From NCBI GenBank assembly GCA_020851325.1, contig JADZCY010000401.1:1-51470 (forward strand): 51,470 bases of DNA, read 5' to 3'. Made by a program: the position numbers and the translations under genes. The notes below the pieces were generated by a model, which searched no databases, was not told the origin of the DNA, and worked only from the letters and a program-made list of their open reading frames with translations. This document shows positions 3-40,204 of this stretch, one piece after another. This DNA is from Acidobacteriota bacterium. Lineage in GTDB: Bacteria; Acidobacteriota; Vicinamibacteria; Vicinamibacterales; UBA2999. The stretch's first letter is position 1, and every line of letters begins with the position of its first letter.

Positions 3-584
3 AACCTGCGCGAGTGGCGGGCGAAGCGCGGGTGGAGTCAGGCGGAACTGGCACGACGCGCCGGTCTCAGCAAGGGCATGCTCGTGCAGATCGAACAGTC
101 GCAGACCAACCCGTCGATCGCGACGCTGTGCAAGCTGGCCAACGCGCTGGGCGTGGCGCTGCCGCGGCTGGTGGAGGTCAGCGATGAGCCGGTCGTCCGC
201 CGCATCGGCCGCGACGATGTGGCGTGGTTGTGGCAGGGCCGCGGCAAGAACAGCGGCGCGGGGCTGATTGGCGGCATCGAGGCGCCGATTCCGGTGGAAC
301 TGTGGGAATGGCGCATGGGCGCCCGCGATGCCTACGAAGCGCCGGCGCACCCCGCCGGCACGCGCGAGATCGTCTACGCGCTCGAAGGTCGCGTGTCGAT
401 CAACGTCGGCGGCACGGACGTGGTAGTGGCGACAGGTGAAGCCGCGATCTTCCAGGCCGATCGGCCGCACCGCTACGCCGCGGCGGGCGGTCGATCGACG
501 CGGTTCATGATGGTCGTCGTCGAGCCGCTCGGTCCGACGCGCCAGTCGCCACGACCGTCGTCGCGAACGGGTCGGCGTCCGTAA
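3..584 (+). CDS. XRE-family transcriptional regulator with C-terminal cupin domain (5' partial)
   Basis: Frame open from window edge: NLREWRAKRGWSQAELARRAGLSKGMLVQIEQSQTNPSIATLCKLANALGV (HTH_3) followed by cupin-like PAGTREIVYALEGRVSINVGG...AAIFQADRPHRY. Confidence 0.85.
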   Translation, partial: NLREWRAKRGWSQAELARRAGLSKGMLVQIEQSQTNPSIATLCKLANALGVALPRLVEVSDEPVVRRIGRDDVAWLWQGRGKNSGAGLIGGIEAPIPVELWEWRMGARDAYEAPAHPAGTREIVYALEGRVSINVGGTDVVVATGEAAIFQADRPHRYAAAGGRSTRFMMVVVEPLGPTRQSPRPSSRTGRRP

Positions 585-939
585 ACAGACTTGCGTCTCG
601 CTGCGTACAGATTCGTAAACATATTCGCGATGCCGACAACCGTTGCCATTCCCGATTCGCTCCTGAAGTCCATCGAGCGTCGCGAGTGGGCAAGCGTCGG
701 AAGTCTTCAGTCTGCGCGATCTCATTACTTTGATATCGCGAAGGCAACGCGTCGCCGAATGCGAGGTGTCTTGCGATCTCTTTCTCGATGCGTCGCCGTC
801 GCCGCGCAGAATTGACTTCAACGACGAGTTGCGATGCAAGAAAAGACGGCACCTCCTCGTCCTGGGCGCGGAGGCAGCAGTGCTTGAATTTGCGCCCGGT
901 CCCGCACGGGCACGGCGCGTTACGACCCGGTGAGGCCAT
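505..939 (-). CDS. SEC-C metal-binding motif protein, possibly degraded C-terminus
   Basis: N-terminus MASPGRNAPCPCGTGRKFKHCC matches the SEC-C zinc motif; the 3' end overlaps the convergent XRE CDS by 80 nt. Confidence 0.55.
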   Translation of the reverse strand: MASPGRNAPCPCGTGRKFKHCCLRAQDEEVPSFLASQLVVEVNSARRRRRIEKEIARHLAFGDALPSRYQSNEIAQTEDFRRLPTRDARWTSGANREWQRLSASRICLRICTQRDASLFTDADPFATTVVATGASDRAARRRPS

Positions 940-956
940 TGCGTGTGATGCCCGGC

Positions 957-1385
957 CTATCGCTCTTCCGCCTCGGTCTGGGTGAGCTGGTGCACCCGCT
1001 GATGCGAGAGTCCCAGCAGACGTGCAGCGTCGCGCGCGCTCATCTTCAGCTTTCCGGACCGGAGCACCCGGACCGCGCGCCGAGCGGCACGAGCGGCGCG
1101 TCGGTCTTCCTCGTCAGCCCTTCTGCGGAGGGCCGCATAGGCCCGAATCGCCTTCGTCGCCGAGATCGGCAGCTTCACATCGTCCACGATGGGCGCTGTG
1201 CGCGCATCATCGACGAACAGTTCCAGCGCTTCCTTGATGCGGCGCCGAGCCTCGTCAACGGTACGTCCCTGCGTGTGGCAGCCGCGGACACCGCTCACAG
1301 AGGCCACCCACCACCCCGACTCATCACGCTCGTAGGCCACGCGATATCGTTTCACGGTTTCCTCAACCATCCCTTCCCGAGGCAC
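957..1385 (-). CDS. hicB: HicB-family antitoxin with C-terminal HTH
   Basis: YRVAYERDESGWWVASVSGVRGCHTQGRTVDEARRRIKEALELFVDD typical of HicB; C-terminal MSARDAARLLGLSHQRVHQL HTH; overlaps upstream hicA. Confidence 0.8.
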   Translation of the reverse strand: MPREGMVEETVKRYRVAYERDESGWWVASVSGVRGCHTQGRTVDEARRRIKEALELFVDDARTAPIVDDVKLPISATKAIRAYAALRRRADEEDRRAARAARRAVRVLRSGKLKMSARDAARLLGLSHQRVHQLTQTEAEER

Positions 1386-1558
1386 GGCTCCAAGTCGCGC
1401 TCGATTCGCCGCAGTAGACCAGGACCGATATCCTCACCCGCATGAACTGGTACGGTCGTCACGCAATGGCCGCATTCGATTCGCAGGTGCGAGCCCCGTT
1501 GCCTGCTCTCGACGCAACCGAAGGACCTCAGGATGCGCCGAAGGTCCTTCGCCGTCAC
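1352..1558 (-). CDS. hicA: HicA-family mRNA interferase toxin
   Basis: MTAKDLRRILRSFGCVESRQRGSHLRIECGHCVTTVPVHAGEDIGPGLLRRIERDL; HicA fold with G-S-H motif, immediately upstream of hicB. Confidence 0.8.
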   Translation of the reverse strand: MTAKDLRRILRSFGCVESRQRGSHLRIECGHCVTTVPVHAGEDIGPGLLRRIERDLEPCLGKGWLRKP

Positions 1559-1564
1559 AGAATC

Positions 1565-1570
1565 AGAATA
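1565..1570 (-). promoter_or_regulatory. candidate leaderless -10 box of hicA (TATTCT, 6 nt before GTG)
   Basis: Minus strand reads TATTCT-gattct-GTG. Confidence 0.5.
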
Positions 1571-1923
1571 GCCGACTCTTGGCGTATGTGTCTAGAGCAG
1601 TAGACAGTGTGAGACCGGGCCGCGTCGCCGGGCTCAGCCGTCGGCGCGGTATTCGTAGACACGCTCTCAGCGCCTCAGAGACGTCGCCGAAAAGAGCGCG
1701 GCGACCGAGCAAGGGACTGCAGAAGCGCACAACTCACGCCATCAGCGCGCTCTGGATTCTCGGCGCTTCTCAGGCAGTGTGCCCACGTGCGTGGGTCCGA
1801 CACGCTGAGATGAGCGAATCTCCGGTCGAATTCGACGAAGGCGACGGTTCGAAAAACCGCCGCCTCGCGCCATGGAAAATCTCGATCAGCTAGGTCTCGA
1901 TTCCGCGTACACTTAGCGTCTGC

Positions 1924-2017
1924 GGTGAGGTGGCCGAGAGGCTGAAGGCGGCGGTTTGCTAAACCGTTGTAGGGCGTTAAAACTCTACCCAGGGTTCGAA
2001 TCCCTGCCTCACCGCCA
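1924..2017 (+). tRNA. tRNA-Ser(GCT)
   Basis: GGTGAGG...CCTCACC acceptor pairing, anticodon loop TTGCTAA (GCT), long class II variable arm, T-loop GGTTCGAATCC, encoded GCCA 3' end. Confidence 0.95.
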
Positions 2018-2026
2018 TTCGACTCG

Positions 2027-2057
2027 CTTTGCGGCTCGCCTCCGGCGAACCGCAAAG
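2027..2057 (+). terminator. strong hairpin just downstream of tRNA-Ser
   Basis: ctttgcggctcgcc-tcc-ggcgaaccgcaaag, 13 of 14 positions paired, 3-nt loop; no clear T-tract. Confidence 0.45.
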
Positions 2058-2336
2058 CTCGCTCATGGCAAGCCAAGAACTGCGCTGAGACTGAACCCGG
2101 AAACTCCCCTCCAGCGAGCCGAAGGGCTCGCCACGGCTCCCTGACCCCGCCCTGTCCTGAGCCCGGCGCGCCGAAAGCTCGCTCATCGCTGACCCGTCGT
2201 AGCCAGCCGAAGAGTCCGGACAGAGCAGGCACCCTCGCTCCGCGCCCACACCCGCACGACCGCCGCAACTCCGCGAGCACCCCGGTGCCGCACGACGGGG
2301 CTGAAGCCTCGTCGCCCCACTGCCCCCGTGCCGCCC

Positions 2337-2455
2337 CGTGCCGCACCTCGTGCCGCACCCCCGTGTAGCACCTCCGTGGAGCACCCCCGTGGAGGACCCC
2401 CGTGGAGCCCCCCCGTGGAGCACCATCGTGAAGCACCCCCGTGTCGCACCCCCGT
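2337..2455 (+). repeat. 13-bp tandem repeat array, consensus CGTGGAGCACCCC
   Basis: Eight 13-bp units in register at 2349-2452 (cgtgccgcacccc, cgtgtagcacctc, cgtggagcacccc, cgtggaggacccc, cgtggagcccccc, cgtggagcaccat, cgtgaagcacccc, cgtgtcgcacccc), preceded by a 12-bp unit. Confidence 0.9.
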
Positions 2456-2486
2456 AAGAACAACCTTCGTGTACCCTGACTCCCAC

Positions 2487-4588
2487 GTGCGCCCCCGCTC
2501 CCTCGTCGACCAGACCTCCCGCTGGCTGACCGGCCCCTCCCGCGAGGCGGCCGTCGCCAGGAACATCCTCGTCTGCGTCGTCTACGTCCTCCTCGCCGAA
2601 CTCGTCCTCTGGCCCAGGAATGACGGCGGCCAGGCCGCCATGCCCGCCTGGCCCGCGCACGGCTGGTCCCTGGCCGTCATCTGGATCTTCGGCCGCCACG
2701 TGCAATACGGCCTGATGGCCGGGGCGACCCTGGTGATCGTCACGCACGGCCCGCCGCTGATGGCCGTGCTCGGCTGCCTCGGCCCGGTTGCCGGCGCCCG
2801 CGCCGCGCGGCGAGTGCTGACGCACCTGCGCTTCGACGATCGCTTCGAACGTATCCGCGATCCGCTGCTCCTCACCATGGTCGGTGCACCGGTCAGCGCC
2901 CTGGTGTCCGCGACGATCGTCACGACGGCCGCGGGGACCGCCGGCCTGCTGCCGCCGCCGGCCCTCGCCGCCGACTGGCTGCTGTGGGTGATGCGCAACT
3001 GGCTCGGCGCCGCCACCATCACGCCGCTGGTCCTGGCCTGGCGCCGCGCCCGTCCCCTGCCCGACATCATCAGCATGGCCCGCGCCGCCGAAGCCGCGGT
3101 GCTGATCACGCTGCTGATGGTGCTGGCCTCGTTCGTGGTGTGGATGTGGGCCATCACCGCGCGCGACATCCCCGTCGCCTTCCTCGCGCTGCCGTTCATC
3201 ACCTGGTCGGGCCTGCGCTTCGGCATGCGCGGCGTCTCGATCGTCATCGTCGTGCTGACGAGCATTGCCGTCTTCGCCGCGGTGTTCGGCCTCGGTCCCA
3301 CCGTCGGCCTGCCGATGCTGGTCGGGCAGGCCATGCTGTTCCTGTTCCTGCTCTTCACCTCGACGGTCGGCCAGGTGCTGGCGGCGATGAAGGCCGAACG
3401 CGACGAAGCCGTGGCGCGCCGCGTGCACCTCGAGGAACAACTTCACCACTCGCAGAAGATGGAAGCGATGGGCCGGCTTGCCGGCGGCATGGCGCACGAC
3501 TTCAACAACCTGCTGACCACCATCGTCGGTTACACCGAAATCCTGATGGGCGCGTTCGATGCGCGCGATCCGAAACGCGCCGACGCCGAACACGTCAGCC
3601 GTGCCGCCATGCGCGCCGCCGAACTGGCGCGGCAGCTGCTCACCTTCAGCCGTCGCCGCGGCGACGCGGCGAAAGCGGTGAACGCCAACACGGTGATCGA
3701 CAAGGTGGAGCCGATGCTGCGCCGTGTGATCGGGGCCGACATTTCGCTGACCATCGCGCCGCGATCGCATCAGCCTGTGGTCAGCATCGATGCCGGTCAG
3801 CTCGAACAGATCGTCATGCACCTGGTGGTCAACGCCCGCGACGCCATGCCGCGCGGCGGACGCCTCACCGTCGAAACGCTCGACGTGCACCTCGACGAAG
3901 ACACCGCGCTCGATACGCCCGATGCGCAGCCCGGCGACTTCGTCGCGATCGTCGTCTCGGATACCGGCGCCGGCATGCCGCCGCTGGTGCGCGACCGCGT
4001 GTTCGAGCCGTACTTCACGACGAAGGAAGCAGGAAAGGGAACCGGGCTGGGGCTCTCCACCGTCTACGGCATGGTGCGCCAGGCCCACGGACACGTCACG
4101 CTCACCACAGCAGTGGGACAGGGAACGACCTTCCGCGTGCTGTTGCCGGTCGCCCACGTCGACGCGGCGCCGGAGACGGAACCGATGGTGTCGCGGCTGC
4201 CGCGCGGCACCGAACACGTCCTCCTCCTCGAAGACGATGCGTCGGTGCGCCGGCTCGCGAAAGAGCTGCTCACCAAGCTCGGCTACAGCGTGATCGAAGC
4301 CGCCTCCGGCCGCGCCGGACTCGCCCTCGGCAGCGACGACGCCCGCCACTTCGACATCGTCGTCTGCGACGTGATCCTCGGCGACATGAGCGGGCCCGCC
4401 GTCGCCGAAGCGCTGCAGGCGCTGCGGCCCGGCATCCGCGTGCTCTACATCTCCGGCTACCTCGACGATGTGATCGTGCGGACCGGCGTGCTGGGCGAAG
4501 GCAAGCCGCTGTTGCAGAAGCCCTTTACGCCGCTCCAGCTTGCGCGCAAGATCCGTGAGGTGCTCGAAGCGCGGGAATACGACGTCGC

Positions 4589-4592
<4 letters not shown>
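2487..4592 (+). CDS. MASE1-like membrane sensor hybrid histidine kinase (HisKA-HATPase-REC)
   Basis: Multiple TM segments, LHHSQKMEAMGRLAGGMAHDFNNLLTTIVGYTEIL (H box), GKGTGLGLSTVYGMV (G box), C-terminal REC EHVLLLEDDASV...VVCDVILGDMSG...LQKPF. Start moved from 2328 to in-frame GTG 2487 because 2328-2455 is a tandem repeat. Confidence 0.85.
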
Positions 4593-7438
<2,846 letters not shown>

Positions 7439-35132: not shown

Positions 35133-36044
35133 CTAGAATCTTTCGCGCTTCAGATCCGCTTCCGCGGCGATGAAGCCGAAGGCGTTCCAGCCGCCGCCGC
35201 TCGTGACGCGCTCGAACACCTGCTTCGCTCGCGCGCGGTCGCCCATGACGAAGTAGTAGTTGCCGACGCCGTATCCCTGCGTCGCAATCGTCGTCGCATC
35301 CGCCTTCGCCGTGTCGAGCAGCGACTGCGGCTTCTCGAGGCCCTTGTACATCAACAGGCGCCGGTGGTACGACTGGTTCTCGAGGATGTCCATCTTCGGC
35401 GTGATGCGCTCCAGCACCTTCGCCGCCTCCGCCTTGCGTCCCATCCGCATCAGCGTCATCCACATCCAGTCGCTCGTCGCGACGATGGAGTCGTCGTTGG
35501 TGGAGACCTTCATGCATTCGACGTAGGCGTCGTAAGCGGGCGCGAAGTTTCCCTGGAGGTAATGCGCCAGCGCCAGGTGATACCAGATGTTGAACTGCAA
35601 CGTGCTGCGCGGAACGCCGGCTGGATTCGGTGCGCCATCGGGCTCCACTTCATCGGGCTTGCCCTTGATCAGCGTCACCGCCTTCTCGAAGTCGGCCTGC
35701 GCCTTCGCGAACTCACGCACCGACAGATACCGATGCCCGCGATGACGATAGAAACGCGCGTCGTTCGGGTAGCGCTCGATGCCTTTCGTGAAGGTCGCGA
35801 TCGCGTCCTGATAGCGCCACAGATAACCCTGACGCCGGCCAATCCACACGAGCGCGTCGGCGGAGTCCGGATTCGGCACCGACTGCGCGTCCTTCAGATC
35901 CTGCTCGAGCTTCGCCTGATTCGGAATCGGCGTCGGCGCAAAAAGCGGCGTGCCCATCAGCGACGTCGCTTCGGGCTTGCGTGTCTGCGCGGCGGCAGTG
36001 AGCGCGGACGCGAGAATCACGGCGGCAATGACGACTCGTCTCAT
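35133..36044 (-). CDS. secreted tetratricopeptide repeat protein
   Basis: Signal peptide MRRVVIAAVILASALTAAAQT; TPR-like ALVWIGRRQGYLWRYQDAIATFTKGIERYPNDARFYRHRGHRYLSVREFAKAQADFEKAV. Confidence 0.85.
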   Translation of the reverse strand: MRRVVIAAVILASALTAAAQTRKPEATSLMGTPLFAPTPIPNQAKLEQDLKDAQSVPNPDSADALVWIGRRQGYLWRYQDAIATFTKGIERYPNDARFYRHRGHRYLSVREFAKAQADFEKAVTLIKGKPDEVEPDGAPNPAGVPRSTLQFNIWYHLALAHYLQGNFAPAYDAYVECMKVSTNDDSIVATSDWMWMTLMRMGRKAEAAKVLERITPKMDILENQSYHRRLLMYKGLEKPQSLLDTAKADATTIATQGYGVGNYYFVMGDRARAKQVFERVTSGGGWNAFGFIAAEADLKRERF

Positions 36045-37354
36045 CGTGGGGTCTCCTCTTCGACGGGGTCGAGCAGGTCCTGCTGCAGCGCGCTCTGCAG
36101 CTTGCGCGCCGCCGTATCTACCGGCGGCGGCGTCTCCGCGGCATCGCCGGTGGCCGCACCCAGTTCGCGGAACCGCCGCATCGACACCATCACGCGCGCA
36201 TCATACGCGCCTACGGCTTCGTTATACGCACGGACGGTGGAATCGAGCCGCTTGCCGACGGTGTCGAGCCGCTCGGTGAAGGCCCGCGCCCGGTCGTACA
36301 GCTCGCGGCCGAGCCGGCTGATCTCTTCCGAGTTCATCGTCAGGCGCTCTTCACGCCAGCCGAGCGCCGCCGTGCGCAGCAGCGCAATCAATGTCAGCGG
36401 CGACGCCAGCAGCACGCGCCGCGTCACGCCGTAGTCGATCAGGTGCAGGTCCTGATCGAGCGCCGCCATGAAGATGGCTTCCGCCGGCAGGAACAGGACG
36501 ACGAAATCCGGTGACGAGGGGAACTGATCCCAATACTGCTTCGCGCCCAGCTTGGTGACGTGATCGCGGACCTGCCGCACGTGATCCGCCAGCTTGCCGG
36601 ACCGCACGCCGTCGTCGGAGGCCGCCTGCGCGTCGAGGAACGCCTCGAGCGGCACCTTGGCGTCGACGACGATGGTGCGGTTGCCGGGGAGGCGGATGAG
36701 CATGTCGGGACGGAGGCGGCCGGTGTCGGTCGTCGCCGTCGTCTGCGACGTGAAGTCGCAGTGCTCGAGCATGCCGGCCAGTTCGACGACCTTGCGCAGC
36801 TGCACTTCGCCCCAGCGGCCGCGGACGCCTGGTGAGCGCAGCGCGCGCACGAGCGTCTGCGTTTCCTGCTGCAACTGCTGCTGCGTCTGACCGACGGCTG
36901 TCAGCAGCGATCGCAGGTGTGCCGCATCGTCGACGCGATTGCGATCGACGGAGGCCAGTGTGGTGGACACCTGCGCCAGCGTGTCGCGGATGGGTGCGAC
37001 GAGGGTGTCGAGCGCCTGCTGGCGCTGCGACAGGTCGTGGGCGGCGGTGCGGTGGACGTTGCCGATGGTCTGATCGGCGAGGTCGAGAAACTGCCGGCTG
37101 CTCGTCGCCAGCGCACCGGCGGCCAGCGCCTCGAACGAATCGCGCAACTGCTGCTGCATGCCGTCGATGGCGGCCAGCGTGTCGGGGACCGTGCGATCGC
37201 GGTGGGCGAGTTCGGCCGAGAGCCGCGCGTGATCGGCCACGAGCTTCGAGGTCTGTTCCGCGGCCCGGGCCCGGGCGATGAACCAGCCGAGCGCGGCGCC
37301 CAGGATCAGCGCGGCGACGGCAAGGACGATCGACGCGGTGGTCAGCACGTCCAC
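36041..37354 (-). CDS. rmuC: DNA recombination protein RmuC
   Basis: RGRWGEVQLRKVVELAGMLEHCDFTSQ, RLRPDMLIRLPGNRTIVVDAKVPLEAFLDA, FVVLFLPAEAIFMAALDQD; N-terminal TM. Confidence 0.92.
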   Translation of the reverse strand: MDVLTTASIVLAVAALILGAALGWFIARARAAEQTSKLVADHARLSAELAHRDRTVPDTLAAIDGMQQQLRDSFEALAAGALATSSRQFLDLADQTIGNVHRTAAHDLSQRQQALDTLVAPIRDTLAQVSTTLASVDRNRVDDAAHLRSLLTAVGQTQQQLQQETQTLVRALRSPGVRGRWGEVQLRKVVELAGMLEHCDFTSQTTATTDTGRLRPDMLIRLPGNRTIVVDAKVPLEAFLDAQAASDDGVRSGKLADHVRQVRDHVTKLGAKQYWDQFPSSPDFVVLFLPAEAIFMAALDQDLHLIDYGVTRRVLLASPLTLIALLRTAALGWREERLTMNSEEISRLGRELYDRARAFTERLDTVGKRLDSTVRAYNEAVGAYDARVMVSMRRFRELGAATGDAAETPPPVDTAARKLQSALQQDLLDPVEEETPR

Positions 37355-37517
37355 AGCTTAACTCCAGGTCTGGCGAACGCGAGCAGTCGCATGCAGGAGC
37401 ATGCAGCGTCTTCGTTCGCGACGTCCTCAGGGGACCGCGCGTTCAAGAATCGCGCGGAACTGGCCGATGCCCTCGTCGTAGAATGAACCCCCGCTTCCCC
37501 CGAGGCACGGATTTGTG

Positions 37518-38852
37518 ATGAACGACGGTCTGGGGCCGAGAACGGCCTCGACGGATGCCGCGACGGGTGAGCCCGTCGAGCTGCTCGAACTCTCGGCGGA
37601 ACTGGCGTTGCACACGCCCTTTGCGACGGCGCTCACCGAGCGCGTCACGCGGCTGTCGGCGGTCCGCCATGCCTCCTACGTGCACCTGCGCCGCGTCGAT
37701 CGTCCGAACATGGACCGGTTGGTCGTGGTGTCGGACGCCACGCCGGGACATCGGTTGTCGGATGTGCTCGACGCCGCGGCGGGGGAGCGGCCGCCGATCG
37801 AAGCGGTCGTCGCGCTGCTGCGGCAGTTGCTGCCGGCGGTCTCGCTGTTCTCGCGCCACAACCGCGCGCACGCGCTGGGCACCATCGCACCCGAGCGCAT
37901 CTTCATTTCGTCGCCGGCGCGTGTCGTCATCGCCGACTCCGCCTTTGGCGCCGCGCTCGATCTGCTCCAGTTGTCGCCGGTCGACGCCTGGCAACGGTAC
38001 CGCGTCGCCGCGCCCTCGTCCATCGACCCGGTCACGAGCACCACTCGCGCCGATGCCACCGCCGTCGGCGTCGTAGCCTTGTCGGTGCTGCTGGGCCGCC
38101 GCCTCACGACCAACGAATACCCAGCGGCGTTGCCGGCGCTGATTGCCGACGCACGCGAACGCCACGGCGACGAGGACCATCCGCTGTCGAGCGTCTTCGC
38201 GCGCTGGCTGCGACGGGCGCTGCAGTTGGAGGGGGGCGGCTTCGATTCGCCGCAGGCGGCACAGATCGCGTTCGAGGAAGTGCTGGCCAGCAACCGGCGC
38301 TACGTCACCGGCACCGACGCGCTCGAGCAGTGGGTCGAGAAGGTGGCCGGGCCTCTCACGCCGCCTGCTCCCGAGCCGGAACCGAGCCTTGCCGCGCCGG
38401 CGCCCGAGCCAGTGGAAACGGTGGTCGACACGCCCGAGGCCGCACCGACTGTCGAGGCCACGCCCGCCGTGCCGACTGGACGGATCTTCGGCATCCCGCG
38501 CTGGGCGCTCGTGCTGCTGGCCGTGTTGATCGTGCAGGCCGGCGTGATCGGCTGGTACTGGACGCGTCCGGCGCCCGGTCCCGTCGAAGGCGAAGGCGAA
38601 CTCGTCGTCACGTCGCGACCCGTCGGCGCCACCGTGATCGTCAACGGCACCGCGCGTGGCGAGACGCCACTGACCTTGACGCTGGCGGCAGGCGCACATG
38701 TCGTCGAAGTGCGCGCCGGGACGAGTGAACCGCGCGTGATCCCGCTGATGATTCGCGCCAACATGCAGACCGCGCAGTACGTCGAACTGCAGGAAGCCGC
38801 GCCGACGCCGCCACCCGTGGAGCGGAAGGCGCCGGTTCGCCGGCGGCGGTGA
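37518..38852 (+). CDS. probable pseudokinase-like domain + TM + PEGA domain protein
   Basis: PEGA: GELVVTSRPVGATVIVNGTARGETPLTLTLAAGAHVVEVRAG; TM WALVLLAVLIVQAGVIGWYW; N-terminal kinase-like spacing without catalytic residues (see findings). Confidence 0.75.
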   Translation: MNDGLGPRTASTDAATGEPVELLELSAELALHTPFATALTERVTRLSAVRHASYVHLRRVDRPNMDRLVVVSDATPGHRLSDVLDAAAGERPPIEAVVALLRQLLPAVSLFSRHNRAHALGTIAPERIFISSPARVVIADSAFGAALDLLQLSPVDAWQRYRVAAPSSIDPVTSTTRADATAVGVVALSVLLGRRLTTNEYPAALPALIADARERHGDEDHPLSSVFARWLRRALQLEGGGFDSPQAAQIAFEEVLASNRRYVTGTDALEQWVEKVAGPLTPPAPEPEPSLAAPAPEPVETVVDTPEAAPTVEATPAVPTGRIFGIPRWALVLLAVLIVQAGVIGWYWTRPAPGPVEGEGELVVTSRPVGATVIVNGTARGETPLTLTLAAGAHVVEVRAGTSEPRVIPLMIRANMQTAQYVELQEAAPTPPPVERKAPVRRRR

Positions 38853-38956: not shown

Positions 38957-40204
38957 ATGCGTCGATTCGTATTCATCGGACTCGTGCTTGGTGTCGGTGT
39001 GACCGGCGCCCTCGCCCGTCAGACGCCCCAGGCACAGGTGCCCGGGATCACTGAGCCGGCCGAGCGCCGCACGACCGACATTCACCTGCCGGCGGATTCC
39101 CTCGTCATCGAAGGCACGATTCCGCCGGGCCGGACGCTGGGCGCGATGTTCGCGGATCACGACGTGGCCGACGCCGATCGCCTGGCGGTGGTGGACGCCG
39201 TGGCGAGCGTCTTCGACGTCCGCAAGCTGCACGCCGGTCAGCCGTTCCTGCTCGATCGTCTCTTCGACGGCCGCGTCCGCACATTCACCTACGGCATCGA
39301 CGACGATCGCCTGCTGCACGTGCAGGCCGACGCCGCGCACGTGTTCCATGCCGAGGTCCAGGCGATCCCGAAGGACACGGAAGTGACGGCGGTGCATGGC
39401 GACATCTCGCGCGAGACGCCGTCGTTGACGCAGTCGCTCGACGCCGCCGGCGAGCGCCTCGATCTCGCATTGCAGATGGCCGAGATCTTCTCCGGCGAGC
39501 TCGACTTCTCGTCGGAACTCCAGCCCGGCGACGGTTATCGGCTGGTGGTGGAACGTCACACGCGCGACGGCGAGGTCGTGGGCTACGGCGATATCCTCGC
39601 GGCGGAATTCGTTGCCAGCGGACGCGCCATTCGCGCCATCCGCTACGCGACGGAAGGCGGCAAGCCGGCGTATTACGACGAGGACGGCCGCTCGCTGAAG
39701 CGCTTCTTCCTGAAGTCGCCGCTCAAGTTCGAGCCGCGCATCACGTCGCGCTTTGCCTCGGCGCGCAAGCATCCCATCCTGAACTACACACGCGCGCACA
39801 ACGGCGTGGACTACGCGGCGCCGCCCGGCGCGCCGGTGGCGGCCGTGGCGCCCGGCACGGTGACGCTGGCCGGATGGACCGGCGGTGGTGGCCGCACCGT
39901 CCGCGTGCGCCATCAGAACGGCTACGAAAGCGAATACCTGCACCTGTCGGCCATCGGCGTGCGCGTCGGCGAACGCATCTCGCAAGGCGATGTCGTCGGC
40001 AAGGTGGGGTCGACGGGCCTCGCGACAGGGCCGCACCTGCACTACGGCCTGCGCAAGAACGGCCGCTACGTCAATCCGGTGATCGAGCACCGCAACATGC
40101 CGCCGGGCGAACCGATTCCCGCCGCCGAATTGCAGGCGTATACGCTCGTCCGCAGCCGGCTCTTCGAGCTCTTCTCCCTTCCTGCTACCCGCGCCGCCAA
40201 CTGA
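38957..40204 (+). CDS. M23-family peptidoglycan peptidase
   Basis: ITSRFASARKHPILNYTRAHNGVDYAAPPGAPVAAVAPGTVTLAGWTGGGGRTVRVRHQNGYESEYLHLS...GLATGPHLHYGLRKNGRYVNP. Confidence 0.92.
   Translation: MRRFVFIGLVLGVGVTGALARQTPQAQVPGITEPAERRTTDIHLPADSLVIEGTIPPGRTLGAMFADHDVADADRLAVVDAVASVFDVRKLHAGQPFLLDRLFDGRVRTFTYGIDDDRLLHVQADAAHVFHAEVQAIPKDTEVTAVHGDISRETPSLTQSLDAAGERLDLALQMAEIFSGELDFSSELQPGDGYRLVVERHTRDGEVVGYGDILAAEFVASGRAIRAIRYATEGGKPAYYDEDGRSLKRFFLKSPLKFEPRITSRFASARKHPILNYTRAHNGVDYAAPPGAPVAAVAPGTVTLAGWTGGGGRTVRVRHQNGYESEYLHLSAIGVRVGERISQGDVVGKVGSTGLATGPHLHYGLRKNGRYVNPVIEHRNMPPGEPIPAAELQAYTLVRSRLFELFSLPATRAAN

Follow-up and report, generated by a model that had tools for sequence, protein, structure and literature searches.

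A probable pseudokinase family with PEGA domains in one order of Acidobacteriota

Introduction

Only a small number of pseudokinases are known from bacteria, most of them uncharacterised. The described families include ActPs1-3, GLW and DLHK and, in part, CP1 and DYD (PMC12599244), and neither Acidobacteriota nor PEGA is named in that review. Our search of the open-access literature returned no paper joining pseudokinase and PEGA. Of three open-access papers with both pseudokinase and Acidobacteria, none appears, judged by title and abstract, to describe the present family.

We analysed a stretch of 51,470 nucleotides (hereafter, the window) with a gene predicted to encode a kinase-like domain, a transmembrane (TM) helix and a PEGA domain. 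The PASTA/Hanks-type kinases (PknB, PknA, StkP) share with this protein the fold, the order of motifs, a cytoplasmic kinase-like domain, a single TM helix and an extracytoplasmic beta domain, but here all four key catalytic residues are absent, PEGA stands in place of PASTA, and Pkinase goes undetected in the window protein. The ActPs3 domain (MviN/Rv3910 kinase homology domain, 3uqc) likewise places a dead kinase fold in a membrane protein, with a structural match and a suggested envelope link. However, it belongs to a different phylum, the pseudokinase here lacks the MviN flippase part, and its motifs differ from the ActPs3 replacements (VALT, Lsidhpsr and Y--) given in Table 1 of PMC12599244. 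The GLW pseudokinases, mainly proteobacterial and with no PEGA reported, carry GLW for HRD, whereas the Acidobacteriota family has mostly HGA at positions 120-122 and the window protein LGT. In some CP1 members all three motifs are degenerate, and a Leptospira member has an H..igp-type catalytic loop; yet CP1 proteins have no TM and are fused to COG3899, whereas the protein here has TM and PEGA and no COG3899. EssB/YukC is also a bitopic membrane protein whose cytoplasmic pseudokinase serves as a scaffold, but it is a T7SSb component of Firmicutes without PEGA, and no such secretion genes occur at this locus. On the features tested, our family thus falls outside GLW, CP1 and ActPs3, and the motifs or hosts reported for ActPs1, ActPs2 and DLHK differ from those seen here.

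Domain layout and predicted fold

An open reading frame (ORF) scan placed the gene where the earlier note had put it, and all stretches quoted there were found in the sequence (Table 1). The ORF starts with ATG at 37518, with an alternative GTG start one codon upstream at 37515, and ends with a TGA stop at 38852. The proposed fusion to a TM segment and a PEGA domain was borne out by the AlphaFold model and by Pfam, whose PEGA profile (PF08308) matched residues 360-400 above its cut-off (E 3.1e-10; 40.2 bits vs 20.8). PEGA was the only Pfam match of the window protein, with neither Pkinase nor an MviN domain detected, and NCBIfam returned no kinase family match for it. MAD6 and LIC10124, weakly matched in relatives by NCBIfam, were rejected with scores far under the cut-off.

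Table 1. Positions in the window of the pseudokinase gene, its predicted domains and altered catalytic sites, and two adjoining genes.
Feature	Coordinates	Strand	Remarks
RmuC-family gene, divergent upstream neighbour conserved in the window's clade	36041..37354	-	PF02646, E 8.5e-95
Pseudokinase gene with PEGA	37518..38852	+	444 aa; same-genus orthologues 65% identical; order-wide family
Kinase-like (pseudokinase) domain, residues 1-278	37518..38351	+	AlphaFold, Foldseek, profile matches, dN/dS
Degenerate G-loop DGLGPR, residues 3-8	37524..37541	+	Arg8 in place of the GxGxxGxV valine
Leu23 at the beta3 (VAIK) lysine position	37584..37586	+	aligned to the lysine of PknB VAVK
Arg42 at the alphaC glutamate position	37641..37643	+	aligned to the alphaC Glu of PknB
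Catalytic-loop equivalent LGTIAPER, residues 120-127	37875..37898	+	family form HGAxxPER
Asp140 at the DFG-Asp position	37935..37937	+	DSA replaces DFG, acid retained
Pro/Ala/Glu-rich low-complexity cytoplasmic linker, residues 279-327	38352..38498	+	pLDDT <50 in stretches; dN/dS ~1.0-1.2
Single TM helix, residues 328-349	38499..38564	+	AlphaFold helix; hydropathy scan
PEGA domain, residues ~359-426, predicted to lie outside the inner membrane	38592..38795	+	Pfam PF08308; beta sandwich in AlphaFold model
M23 peptidase gene, downstream neighbour conserved in the window's clade	38957..40204	+	PF01551, E 4.8e-34; start codon not certain

Kinase homology was faint in the window protein itself and clear in the family. 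Specifically, phmmer with the single window sequence gave marginal matches to kinases in the PDB (E 0.006-0.03), whereas a profile of 30 relatives matched S. aureus PknB, M. tuberculosis PknB/PknA and S. pneumoniae StkP with E-values of 4e-9 to 6e-8. By hhalign, the family profile aligned with active acidobacterial kinases from the same genome and its relatives at 99.5% probability (E 1.9e-22), and 16 of the 112 aligned members matched Pfam Pkinase at E <= 0.01 (best 1.9e-8). The full-length AlphaFold model of the window protein had a mean pLDDT of 88, and the kinase-like domain modelled alone from the 112-sequence alignment reached a mean pLDDT of 95.9 and a pTM of 0.94. The top PDB matches of this domain model in Foldseek were all kinases (S. 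aureus PknB and M. tuberculosis PknA, PknB and PknI; TM-scores to PknB/PknA 0.54-0.67), and the MviN pseudokinase 3uqc ranked 21 (E 3.4e-9). The earlier note had read a kinase order in the N-terminal region and had held that a predicted fold unlike a kinase would count against this reading. Both the above-chance profile and Pkinase matches and the bilobal fold of the model agree with that reading and place the domain in the protein kinase (Hanks-type) fold superfamily.

Catalytic positions lost, replaced or kept

We took a residue census over the 112 aligned members, with the register set by alignment to PknB and by hhalign to active kinases of the same genome. None of the 112 carries the beta3 Lys, the alphaC Glu, the HRD Asp or the catalytic-loop Asn, so the residue set of an active Ser/Thr protein kinase is incomplete throughout and the domain fits the definition of a pseudokinase, a kinase fold without at least one canonical catalytic residue. 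The replacements are themselves conserved, which answers the orthologue comparison that the earlier note had proposed for the missing positions. The beta3 Lys position is Leu in 101/112 and the alphaC Glu position is Arg in 98/112; in the degenerate G-loop, both R8 and G6 are found in 112/112. At positions 120-122 the family has H in 93, G in 110 and A in 76 of the 112 members, so that the HRD Asp, which had been read as missing, gives way to Ala in 76/112 and to Thr in the window protein. Position 127, that of the Asn, is Arg in 99 members (including the window protein) and His in 12.

There is also no canonical DFG/APE activation segment in the pseudokinase. The reading of VVIADSAF as standing in for DFG holds for the Phe and Gly, both of which are gone, but not for the Asp, as profile alignment to PknB places D140 on the DFG Asp. 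Position 140 is Glu in 74, Asp in 37 and Ala in one of the 112 members; the metal-site acid was thus kept in 111/112 while the F and G were lost. Ranked by conservation among the 260 domain positions, R8 and G6 hold ranks 1-2, L23 is 14th and R127 15th. The five ex-catalytic positions carry more information than randomly drawn ones, equally informative draws having come up 201 times in 100,000. The pairs at positions 127 and 140 were R-E in 74, R-D in 25, H-D in 11 and H-E in none of the 112 members. This co-variation is consistent with a predicted contact between R127 and the acid that may replace the metal site, although shared ancestry alone could give the same pattern. The domain is almost certainly a catalytically dead kinase fold held under selection.

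Distribution and selection

Within a single Acidobacteriota order, 83 of 162 genomes encode a member of the family. In a phylum sample of 297 genomes, matches of at least 150 bits were confined to this order, and the next best scored 69 bits and lower. Most of the eleven near-miss loci that we read had canonical catalytic motifs. Two of them, outside the order, are other degenerate kinases with HGFLHP and HGSLSP catalytic loops (L074:366-2333 and L078:2071-4104); a catalytic loop of the form HG[ASF]LxP recurs among unrelated dead kinases. A search of GTDB contigs for related loci recovered two, both of them orthologues already known. In our tree, the 113 domain sequences formed one clade on a long stem, apart from 14 active kinases, and a more careful tree of 42 rows supported the family clade at 100/100. 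The family has a single origin.

At least one match to a PEGA model built in this analysis was found in 89 of 114 family ORFs, some of the other 25 being cut by contig ends. One clade of members of 294-372 aa (L133, L029, L144, L146 and L028), inside the window's family, consists of the kinase-like domain only, with TM or PEGA not detected; membrane anchoring is therefore not universal in the family. The M23 peptidase gene still adjoins two of these short members (L029 and L133).

We estimated dN/dS for the window gene against two same-genus orthologues. The kinase-like domain gave 0.08-0.15, indicating purifying selection, and the TM helix plus PEGA gave 0.08-0.22, whereas the linker reached ~1.0-1.2 at 21-29% identity between the window protein and these orthologues, so that it holds no conserved site. 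The gene is nonetheless dispensable, because it is broken or absent at the locus in three genomes. In G032 it is broken at the syntenic site, where only two fragments, one N-terminal and one from PEGA, lie between RmuC and M23 (L183:3490-3950). In G386 a short C-terminal remnant occupies the syntenic site, and in G002 no recognisable remnant was found there. Taken together, we regard this as a genuine, old, previously unrecognised and order-wide pseudokinase family kept by selection in soil Acidobacteriota.

Neighbouring genes and other kinases of the genome

Downstream of the pseudokinase gene, the window holds on the same strand genes for the M23 peptidase, an unassigned small protein, DUF1015, a SerA-like D-2-hydroxyacid dehydrogenase and a class-V aminotransferase. 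The order conserved in the window's clade is RmuC (divergent), pseudokinase, M23 peptidase, DUF1015 and SerA. In the larger clade, a gene for a TonB_C-domain protein lies at +1 in 24 members, frequently with a 0 bp gap; an M23 peptidase gene is found at +1 or +2 in 18 family members, and the deep member L010 has both neighbours. As the M23-DUF1015 pair also persists in relatives without the pseudokinase, the M23 linkage may reflect conserved gene order and nothing more, and the case for the peptidase as an obligate partner is weakened. The TonB_C and M23 neighbours point to the cell envelope without naming a partner.

The earlier note had assumed active Ser/Thr protein kinases (STPKs) in this genome, and in it ten matches to Pkinase exceed the curated cut-off, while HRDxKxxN is present at nine loci. 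One of the ten, an active STPK with TPR repeats, lies in the window itself (4589-7438; Pkinase E 8.5e-46), ~30 kb from the pseudokinase. The genome also encodes a separate second pseudokinase of the same architecture (L041, contig C309, minus strand, within 91-3576), with a kinase-like domain, linker, TM and two PEGA repeats, in which the VAIK Lys is kept, HGALHPRD replaces HRDxxxxN and TGLG replaces DFG. In the tree this protein stands apart from the family on a long branch, and its candidacy as a close sister found no clear support. A further locus (L032, contig C139, minus strand, 604-3351) is a tandem kinase-pseudokinase in one ORF, where an active domain (HRDLKPAN, DFG) is followed directly by a degenerate one (IAGVNPDM catalytic loop, SAG for DFG).

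Possible functions of the pseudokinase

A kinase-fold family that lacks the catalytic residues and is kept by selection probably serves as a scaffold or switch and not as an enzyme. With a probability of roughly 0.65, we therefore read the protein as a bitopic inner-membrane pseudokinase (cytoplasmic dead kinase fold, flexible linker, TM helix and periplasmic PEGA) that acts as a scaffold or allosteric partner; for the scaffold or allosteric function taken separately, the balance of the evidence is still in favour. The former ATP cleft would no longer hold Mg-ATP. The arginines R8, R42 and R127, joined by R79 on the hinge side, would remodel it around the retained acid 140, and this remodelling may either fix the domain in one conformation or allow a different anionic ligand to bind. 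The kinase-fold domain would then work through protein-protein contact at the envelope, with PEGA anchoring or sensing on the periplasmic side and the linker acting as a flexible connection without conserved sequence signal. The suggestion of an allosteric or scaffold receptor in the earlier note is a reasonable one and, like ours, an inference.

The main rival is a new active or ligand-binding site made up of the invariant arginines and the retained acid, at which the remodelled cleft runs another reaction or senses a nucleotide-like or other anionic ligand. We consider this possible but unlikely. A lack of canonical kinase residues is not proof that catalysis is absent, as SelO AMPylates and SidJ glutamylates. 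Conservation within the domain peaks at the cleft positions, R8 (112/112), R79 (110/112) and E/D140 (111/112) among them, although this larger set was partly picked after conservation had been seen. New chemistry has also been gained by other pseudokinases (PMC12599244). Nonetheless, all four canonical residues are missing in every member, and a salt-bridge network would account for the same conservation without a ligand. A transmembrane receptor whose arginine/acid cleft would sense an anionic metabolite of the cytoplasm, or catalyse a transfer reaction other than that of a kinase, coupled to the envelope via PEGA, is a candidate to which we give slightly less weight still.

It is rather improbable that the protein is instead a phosphorylation-controlled regulator or receptor, in which the linker is phosphorylated by an active STPK and an FHA protein then binds the phospho-site. 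PMC12599244 describes a precedent in the pseudokinase domain of M. tuberculosis MviN, our domain model also matches 3uqc, and ~ten kinases of the genome exceed the Pfam cut-off. However, a phospho-site in the linker is not conserved, given its dN/dS near 1 and low identity among same-genus orthologues, and the neighbourhood and domains of MviN are unrelated to those found here. That the gene is a decaying, functionless kinase relic would fit the lost catalytic residues and the broken or absent copies in several relatives, but this reading is already contradicted, and scarcely credible, in view of the low dN/dS of the domain, the invariance of non-kinase residues over 112 members and the persistence of one clade across half of the order's genomes (83/162). 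The role of scaffold, or of allosteric partner to an active kinase, is thus the most likely, ahead of new chemistry or ligand binding in the arginine-rich cleft.

What this family adds to the few bacterial pseudokinases described is an order-wide group of single origin, mostly missed by Pfam as kinase-like, with defined active-site replacements and conserved envelope neighbours. The PEGA pseudokinases are a test case for the role of a dead kinase domain in bacteria.
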